Of a stretch of DNA of 45,326 nucleotides, positions 43,753-45,326 are shown one piece after another (positions within the stretch are counted from its first letter, which is position 1; every line of letters begins with the position of its first letter). Made by a program: the position numbers and the translations under genes. Below the pieces are notes generated by a model. The model saw only the letters and a program-made list of their open reading frames with translations, searched no databases and had not been told where the DNA came from. Location of the stretch: NCBI GenBank assembly GCA_030950585.1, contig JAUZRG010000090.1, forward strand, positions 1-45,326. The letters run 5' to 3'. Source of the DNA: Mariprofundaceae bacterium (GTDB lineage: Bacteria > Pseudomonadota > Zetaproteobacteria > Mariprofundales > Mariprofundaceae).

Positions 43753-44613
43753 ATGGCAATCAAAAAACGTGGTTTAGGTCGTGGTCTCAACGCCTTACTT
43801 GCAGGCACAGGTACACTTGACCCTGAAATAAGCAAAACCACCAATACCTTAAAAATAAAATCCATTAAGCCCAACCCTTTTCAACCAAGGGTCATCTTCG
43901 ATGATGCGGAACTCACCAACTTAGCTGAGTCTATTCGCCTTGATGGCGTGATCATGCCTATTTTGGTGCGTCCTGCCAAAAACAACACCTATCAGCTCAT
44001 TGCAGGTGAACGCCGTTGGCGCGCCTCTCAACTGGCTGGTTTGCATGATATTCCCGCGATTGTGCGTGATGTGGATGATCGCCAAGCTTTAGAGCTGGCT
44101 ATCATTGAAAATGAGCATCGCAATGATTTAACTGCAATGGAATCAGCACGCGCCTACCAACGCTTGCATAAAGAATTTGGCCTCACCCAAATCGATATTG
44201 CAACACGCATTGGTATTTCACGCTCACAAGTGACCAACCTCATTCGCTTGCTGCAATTACCACAACTCGTGCAAGACCTCATTGATCAACGCGCCATCGG
44301 CATGGGTCATGCTCGACCTTTAATTAACCTCAGCGAAGCAGAATCCATTAAGCTCGCGCAACGCTGCATTGCAGAAGGTTGGAGTGTTCGCCAAGTCGAG
44401 CAAGCCAGTAAAAACAATAAAATAGCAGCGAATACAACAAAGACACCCGAACCATCCATGCGAAAAATTCAAGATGAAATAAGCTTACACCTTGGTTTAG
44501 CCATACAATTAAACCAAAAACGCAACGGCAAAGGTGAAATGCGAATTAAATTTAAAAATCAACAAGAGATGGATGATGTGATTCACCATATAAAGAAACT
44601 CAGAACAGCATAA
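43753..44613 (+). CDS. parB: Chromosome partitioning protein ParB (Spo0J)
   Basis: ParB is a CTP-dependent DNA clamp that loads at parS and spreads. The N-terminal CTPase domain (~30-125) shows NPFQPR, GVIMPILVRP, the GERRWRAS motif and ENEHRNDLTAMESA. The helix-turn-helix (~140-200) has LTQIDIATRIGISRSQVTNLIRLL. A C-terminal dimer domain follows (~225-286). The length of 286 is normal. AAGGAG lies 5 nt before the ATG, provided by the end of parA. The gene is closed by a strong terminator at 44630-44667. Confidence 0.97.
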   Translation: MAIKKRGLGRGLNALLAGTGTLDPEISKTTNTLKIKSIKPNPFQPRVIFDDAELTNLAESIRLDGVIMPILVRPAKNNTYQLIAGERRWRASQLAGLHDIPAIVRDVDDRQALELAIIENEHRNDLTAMESARAYQRLHKEFGLTQIDIATRIGISRSQVTNLIRLLQLPQLVQDLIDQRAIGMGHARPLINLSEAESIKLAQRCIAEGWSVRQVEQASKNNKIAANTTKTPEPSMRKIQDEISLHLGLAIQLNQKRNGKGEMRIKFKNQQEMDDVIHHIKKLRTA

Positions 44614-44629
44614 TTCGTTTTTAAACCAT

Positions 44630-44667
44630 AAAAAAAGGCTCAGTTGTCACGCAACTGAGCCTTTTTT
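44630..44667. terminator. Bidirectional rho-independent terminator after parB
   Basis: A perfect 10-bp stem (GGCTCAGTTG / CAACTGAGCC, 44637-44646 and 44652-44661) with the 5-nt loop TCACG is preceded by A7 and followed by T6. It can stop transcription from either side. It closes the parB transcript. The same 38 nt recur identically at 44863-44900. Confidence 0.92.
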
Positions 44668-44794
44668 CTGTGGGGAAACTAAACTGCCCTTAAATTGGAA
44701 TCAGATGCCGAGGGGAGGACGACATCTGATGTACGAAGTATAGGCAGTAGCCCTTTAAGGAAAGATGATGATTACATTAAAGAAGATTAAGGTT
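44630..44794. repeat. Tandem structured unit, copy A (candidate small RNA)
   Basis: This unit of 165 nt recurs 231-233 nt downstream. It contains the terminator hairpin (44630-44667), a variable spacer of 33 nt, and a near-identical 94-nt part (44701-44794; two substitutions). The 94-nt part, with the preceding A, holds a stem of ATCAGATGCCG / CGACATCTGAT around the loop AGGGGAGGA. The one changed stem base makes an A-C mismatch on the plus strand but a G-U pair on the minus strand. A minus-strand transcript would end at the hairpin inside the unit. A weak minus promoter is seen for this copy only (TTGCCT, 16 nt, TTTAAT). Confidence 0.7.
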
Positions 44795-44862
44795 ATCAGG
44801 CAAAGAACATCCAGCATCTAAAAACAGTCTTAAAGCCTTGATATTCATTGACAAAAAATCAC

Positions 44863-44900
44863 AAAAAAAGGCTCAGTTGTCACGCAACTGAGCCTTTTTT
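44863..44900. terminator. Bidirectional terminator, second copy
   Basis: Identical to the terminator at 44630-44667: A7, stem at 44870-44879 and 44885-44894, T6. On the minus strand it would stop reading-through from the CRISPR array side before it reaches parB; on the plus strand it would end any transcript starting in copy A. Confidence 0.9.
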
Positions 44901-45025
44901 ATGTGGGGAAATAAACACCCTATAAACAGGATCAGATGTCGAGGGGAGGACGACATCTGATGTACGAAGTATAGGCAGTAGCCCTTTAAGGAAAGATGAT
45001 GATTACATTAAAGAAGGTTAAGGTT
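44863..45025. repeat. Tandem structured unit, copy B (candidate small RNA)
   Basis: Second copy of the unit, 163 nt. The stem here is fully paired over 11 bp (ATCAGATGTCG / CGACATCTGAT, 44931-44941 and 44951-44961) with the same AGGGGAGGA loop. The spacer between hairpin and stem differs from copy A and is 2 nt shorter. Beyond 45025 the two copies lose all similarity. The similarity of hairpin and stem, with a drifting linker, is what a structured RNA would show; a recent duplication with partial drift is the simpler alternative. Confidence 0.7.
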
Positions 45026-45238: not shown

Positions 45239-45326
45239 TTTCTAAGCTGCCTATTCGGCAGTGAACACAAAATCAAGTGAAAATCAGCTGGATGTAATCT
45301 TCTAAGCTGCCTATTCGGCAGTGAAC
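45239..45326 (-). CRISPR. Start of a type I-F CRISPR array (two repeats, one spacer)
   Basis: Two 28-nt repeats (45239-45266 and 45299-45326) flank a 32-nt spacer (45267-45298), giving the 60-nt period typical of type I-F. On the minus strand the repeat begins GTTCACTGCCG, has the stem CTGCC/GGCAG, and ends GCTTAGAAA, which is the I-F consensus. The two copies are identical over 27 nt and differ in the last base on the crRNA strand (A in the outer one, G in the inner one). crRNA sense is therefore the minus strand, so the leader and any cas genes should lie to the right, outside the window, and this end is leader-distal. The window stops exactly at a repeat end. Confidence 0.88.

Follow-up and report, generated by a model that had tools for sequence, protein, structure and literature searches.

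Putative sibling small RNAs with an anti-Shine-Dalgarno loop in a Mariprofundaceae bacterium and its relatives

Introduction

NfeR1 of rhizobia, a member of the alpha-r14 family, silences mRNAs at their ribosome-binding sites (PMC10746234). NmsRA and NmsRB of Neisseria act by translational repression, silencing mRNAs at the Shine-Dalgarno sequence (PMC5362039). C-rich CCUCCUCCC loops are also carried by CcsR1-4 of Rhodobacter sphaeroides. OmrA/OmrB and Qrr are sibling small RNAs (sRNAs) that combine conserved parts with a drifting middle and answer to one response regulator; they are Hfq-dependent, have other sequences, and their seeds are not anti-Shine-Dalgarno hairpin loops. Here, a pair of repeated units at the end of a 45,326-nt stretch of DNA from a Mariprofundaceae bacterium (contig JAUZRG010000090.1; "the window") is described, which shares with several of these systems the sibling arrangement and a predicted hairpin loop complementary to the Shine-Dalgarno sequence.

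Results

The window ends, in order, with a methyltransferase gene (likely rsmG), parA, parB (43753-44613, plus strand), the two units, and a CRISPR array, of which the far end is included. Units 1 and 2 are direct repeats with a spacing of 231-233 nt. Their 38-nt terminator blocks are identical, the other conserved blocks (~97 nt) differ at three positions, and the linker (~32 nt) has diverged, including a 2-nt change in length; the two-copy repeat described in an initial annotation of the window was thus confirmed. Read on the minus strand, each unit comprises a ~65-nt conserved upstream part, an 11-bp hairpin, the diverged linker, and a 16-bp terminator. As the −10 element TATACT sets the predicted +1 where the hairpin begins, RNAs of ~100 nt (unit 2) and ~102 nt (unit 1) are predicted. 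The length of 150-165 nt originally proposed did not hold because ~65 nt of promoter had been counted in; of the conserved 94-nt part, which had been taken for RNA, only ~31 nt is RNA and the remainder promoter. The initial annotation recognised neither the promoter box nor the C-rich loop with its anti-Shine-Dalgarno motif.

The predicted transcript of unit 2 (44862..44961, minus strand, as are all features of both units) begins at 44961, as deduced from the −10 element (44968..44973), and ends in the T-run of the intrinsic terminator (44864..44900; 16-bp stem plus U tail). Its 5′ hairpin (44931..44961; 11 bp, loop UCCUCCCCU, anti-Shine-Dalgarno) rests on folding and on family-wide covariation of the stem; the promoter box, four T.A repeats at 11-bp spacing, lies at 44984..45023 (family matrix score 16.4). 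Delimited on the same basis, unit 1 consists of a predicted transcript at 44629..44730, a 5′ hairpin at 44700..44730 with the loop UCCUCCCCU, an intrinsic terminator at 44631..44667, a TATACT −10 element at 44737..44742, and a box of the same four 11-bp-spaced T.A repeats at 44753..44792 (score 17.8). The folding z-scores of the minus-strand RNAs were −10.5 (unit 2) and −7.7 (unit 1), and the scores with the covariance model R3 (see below) 104.1 and 104.2 bits, respectively. The sole stem change between the units converts U-A into the one U-G pair of unit 1 on the minus strand, so that pairing is kept. When the window was scanned with the box matrix, units 1 and 2 were the best sites by far. 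Both are likely minus-strand sRNA genes, each with a box, a −10 element, a ~100-nt transcript and a strong intrinsic terminator; the transcript is predicted from the sequence, and there are no expression data. The unit 1 terminator stem is symmetric and could possibly serve parB on the plus strand as well. A small peptide encoded on the plus strand (MMITLKK...) was rejected as a candidate: it overlaps the promoter box, and relatives conserve the box, not the peptide sequence.

A BLAST search with the unit in 100 relatives returned terminators and one short chance match, nothing else. Outside the window's genome, matches to a model of RNA plus terminator (R1) were weak (21-38 bits), looked like terminators, and were left aside. 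Searching with promoter plus hairpin (R2) retrieved four relatives that were convincing despite weak matches: L129 and L130 in the window's genome, and L123 and L124 in other genomes; the latter two have a CCUCC-rich loop and a terminator, although the terminator is absent from R2. Three further hits of this search (L125-L127) were rejected as chance matches. Model R3, seeded from six sequences (units 1 and 2 and the four R2 relatives), had matches in 68 of the 74 genomes from the taxonomic family of the window's bacterium (E ≤ 1; 1-7 matches per genome), and in 35 of the 36 good genomes among them. At E ≤ 0.01, R3 matched three genomes of a sister family (the order provided four genomes beyond those 74) and nothing in the ~320 genomes searched from the rest of the phylum; this sharp taxonomic edge doubles as a negative control. 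The covariance search in related genomes that the initial annotation had suggested, grown from the two copies, thus produced family-wide matches. Homologous copies without structure-preserving changes, which it had named as a refutation, can be judged on this set: copies exist, and they carry such changes. Tandem pairs or triples also occur in genomes G002, G015, G023, G030, G045, G051 and G054. In the window's genome, L130:1501-1615 and L129:1501-1596 are weaker copies with box and hairpin and without a clear terminator, L130 having a long C/U-rich loop and being placed between convergent genes; these two may be decaying copies. Two R3 hits are not sRNAs of this family: at L247:1220-1338 and L240:1226-1304, the sRNA hairpin is missing, and box and −10 element lead instead to small protein genes that have good ribosome-binding sites. 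Conceivably, these genes are protein members of the box regulon.

The structure was evaluated on 109 distinct sequences in an alignment fitted to the model. The outer 8-bp helix was paired in 99.5% of cells. Over the whole structure, 162 cells showed two-sided changes versus 53.6 ± 10 in shuffles, and the covariation score of 0.479 fell to ≤0.096 once the partner column was slid, collapsing already at a slide of one column. G-U pairs occupied 89 cells across the family and A-C only 2, which identifies the minus strand of the window as the RNA strand; the strand argument initially drawn from a single G-U substitution thus held for the units and for the whole family. The R3 seeds are hits of the model's own predecessor, and the stem counts therefore lean towards the model, a bias from which the search with the box alone (see below) is free. 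Because the model shaped the alignment, terminators and coding avoidance are weighted above the stem counts: a terminator lay no more than 120 nt downstream in 110 of 121 members versus 45 of 1210 random positions (3.7%), and the coding overlap of the RNAs was 8% versus 73% for the background. The median predicted RNA length in the family was 86 nt. What the sequence of a trans-acting sRNA gene is expected to show, namely its own promoter, a structured intergenic RNA, an intrinsic terminator, and conservation beyond one genome, was found in full.

The promoter box consists of four direct repeats of exact 11-bp spacing, with T/A at −60/−58, −49/−47, −38/−36 and −27/−25. Six of these positions are invariant in the 120 aligned members (A at −58 and −25, T at −49 and −38, A at −47 and −36); the other two are nearly so, 119 members having T at −60 and 115 having it at −27. 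The last repeat ends ~10 nt upstream of the TAnnnT −10 element, itself kept at the same distance from the hairpin across the family. Such repeat geometry is that of OmpR/PhoB-family activators, and the features of an OmpR/PhoB-type target (11-bp direct repeats ending ~10 nt above the −10) are present; the regulator itself is unidentified and its type inferred from the geometry of the box. Only one other site above 9 bits was found in the 694 kb examined. The possibility that pst operons share the box was rejected, as the 172 kb scanned around pstC genes contained no site above 9 bits; because the box is absent there, PhoB itself is unsupported. A separate observation concerns the pst genes: in most genomes, PstC/PstA-like permeases occur as an adjacent pair whose open frames are long (400-440 aa; G000:C58:8962-10984 and relatives), and shorter ordinary pst sets are present elsewhere. 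A pattern search for the box alone in 30 genomes yielded 78 sites, compared with ~9 for the reversed pattern. Among the 27 retrieved sites that R3 had missed, 24 lead directly into a hairpin with a CCUCC loop and a terminator; the remaining three, upstream of a multicopper oxidase, an Rrf2 regulator, and what we take, from reading its sequence, to be a glyQ-like gene, may be due to chance. The boxes of units 1 and 2 represent a weaker variant that the strict pattern fails to match.

An exposed complement of the Shine-Dalgarno sequence, one of the features expected of an anti-Shine-Dalgarno RNA, was present in 119 of 121 loops (CCUCC or CUCCC), most of which contain three CCUCC. Over 38 genes of the window, predicted pairing with the loop was only marginally stronger at start regions than in gene interiors (p = 0.011), and a Shine-Dalgarno core was found in just 12 of these genes. 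Hfq, on which an Hfq-dependent sRNA relies, was not found in the window's genome (a draft, 99% complete; searched with positive controls), and the sRNA would thus act independently of it.

In 40 loci, an RND efflux permease gene is located upstream on the same strand; judging by appearance only, this is likely the ancestral location. The other loci are dispersed, a pattern that fits trans-acting RNAs. The pair in the window occupies a different site, behind parB, and since no such hairpin follows parB in 29 relatives, parB is not the usual home of the sRNA. Members of the family are adjoined in three genomes by 6S RNA-like matches (L246:1423-1592, L357:1315-1489 and L234:1003-1168) of 40-45 bits, the Rfam cut-off being 46.4. 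The CRISPR array in the window (45239-45326) is of the CRISPR-DR4 repeat type and truncated at the window edge; its repeats read on the minus strand, which places the leader outside the window.

No Rfam family reached its gathering cut-off over the units or in 20 loci with relatives. Nothing relevant emerged from the literature searched on a zeta-pan motif or on sRNAs of Mariprofundus and the Zetaproteobacteria. The original claim of two terminator-ended minus-strand sRNAs outside known families is thus supported, with Rfam as the reference and in the absence of expression data.

Discussion

The units likely encode trans-acting sibling anti-Shine-Dalgarno sRNAs that block translation (probability roughly 0.78); repression and regulator are inferred, and neither transcript, target nor regulator has been shown. 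In this view, they would be two sibling genes of a multi-copy sRNA family, putatively switched on jointly by an OmpR/PhoB-type regulator. This winged-helix protein, whose identity is inferred and for which there are no binding data, would bind the four repeats at approximately −60 to −25, replacing a −35 element, and would turn on transcription from the TAnnnT −10; box and −10 are seen in the sequence. The RNA would begin with the first base of the hairpin, and its loop would present CCUCC (one copy here, up to five elsewhere), a motif that is complementary to the Shine-Dalgarno sequence and reproduces the 16S rRNA tail. A short linker would follow, and the RNA would end at the intrinsic terminator; loop motif and terminator are both apparent in the sequence. 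The loop would then most likely pair with the ribosome-binding sites of several mRNAs and thereby block their translation, an inference for which no target has been shown. Repression by pairing is favoured because NfeR1 and NmsRA/B, which expose an anti-Shine-Dalgarno word, block ribosome-binding sites. The siblings may add dose or, via the variable linker, small differences in target choice, which is likewise inferred.

Alternatively, the sRNA could use its loop to titrate a ribosomal component or a protein that binds C/U-rich RNA, without pairing to mRNA. Most loops contain two to five near-identical CCUCC repeats, more than a single pairing would require, and within the window the signal for target pairing is weak. 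However, the repeated word is exactly anti-Shine-Dalgarno, not merely C-rich, and known RNAs with such words work by pairing; titration is thus unlikely. An RNA from the plus strand, with GGA in its loop (AGGGGAGGA), might sponge CsrA in the manner of CsrB/RsmZ, but CsrA, on which such a sponge depends, was not found in the window's genome (a search with positive controls), and both the 89:2 ratio of G-U to A-C and the order of −10, box and terminator indicate the minus strand, which all but excludes this reading.

Hardly more tenable is a CRISPR-associated RNA or array remnant. Only ~200 nt separate the units from the CRISPR-DR4 array, at its far end, but 20 loci with relatives contain no CRISPR repeat at Rfam gathering scores, 40 loci sit behind the RND efflux gene instead, and the 8-nt word common to repeat and unit lies within an unconserved part of the promoter. 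The array, initially offered as context, is an incidental neighbour and no part of the sRNA system. A recent functionless duplication of a mobile or repeated element would account for near-identical adjacent copies; the covarying stem, the intergenic placement, the near-invariant box, and the conserved position in 40 loci make it very improbable. A bolder version can also be formulated, in which a dedicated regulator, its regulon consisting of little but these sRNAs, controls several hairpin copies per genome that repeatedly mimic the 16S rRNA tail and act, order-wide, as an Hfq-free, dose-dependent translation brake on many or most Shine-Dalgarno mRNAs; this we regard as unlikely.

If sibling anti-Shine-Dalgarno sRNAs are indeed encoded here, they would form an sRNA family that, to judge from Rfam and the literature searched, has no described predecessor in the Zetaproteobacteria, marine iron oxidisers, and one near-universal in its (probably iron-oxidising) bacterial family. 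As the box marks almost exclusively these RNAs, the whole post-transcriptional circuit (regulator, signal, targets) could be mapped from sequence. It also raises the question of target choice, since the anti-Shine-Dalgarno loop is generic and no Hfq was detected in the organism.

The inferred function is that of an anti-Shine-Dalgarno sRNA, yet the RNAs stand outside the catalogued families, and a description outside the literature searched cannot be excluded. Nearest by motif among Rfam families is alpha-r14 (RF02344), far below threshold (best score 28.7 bits versus a cut-off of 58.8). Like NfeR1, which keeps its CCUCCUCCC anti-Shine-Dalgarno motifs unpaired in hairpins of differing stems (PMC10746234), the new RNAs expose the motif in a hairpin; in contrast to the three one-motif hairpins of alpha-r14, the members inspected have one 5′ hairpin (1-5 CCUCC) and a terminator, and promoter control differs. 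OmrA/OmrB and Qrr are similar as siblings with conserved parts, a drifting middle and a single response regulator, and dissimilar in Hfq dependence, sequence, and seeds outside anti-Shine-Dalgarno hairpin loops. The four homologous CcsR sRNAs are clustered as well, but are cut from one transcript with ccaF1 under an RpoH promoter (PMC10253847), whereas each copy here has its own promoter and terminator. NmsRA and NmsRB contain three stem-loops and two anti-Shine-Dalgarno regions instead of a 5′ hairpin and a terminator (no direct sequence comparison was made), and resemble the present pair in being tandem intergenic siblings with UC-rich anti-Shine-Dalgarno parts (PMC5362039).
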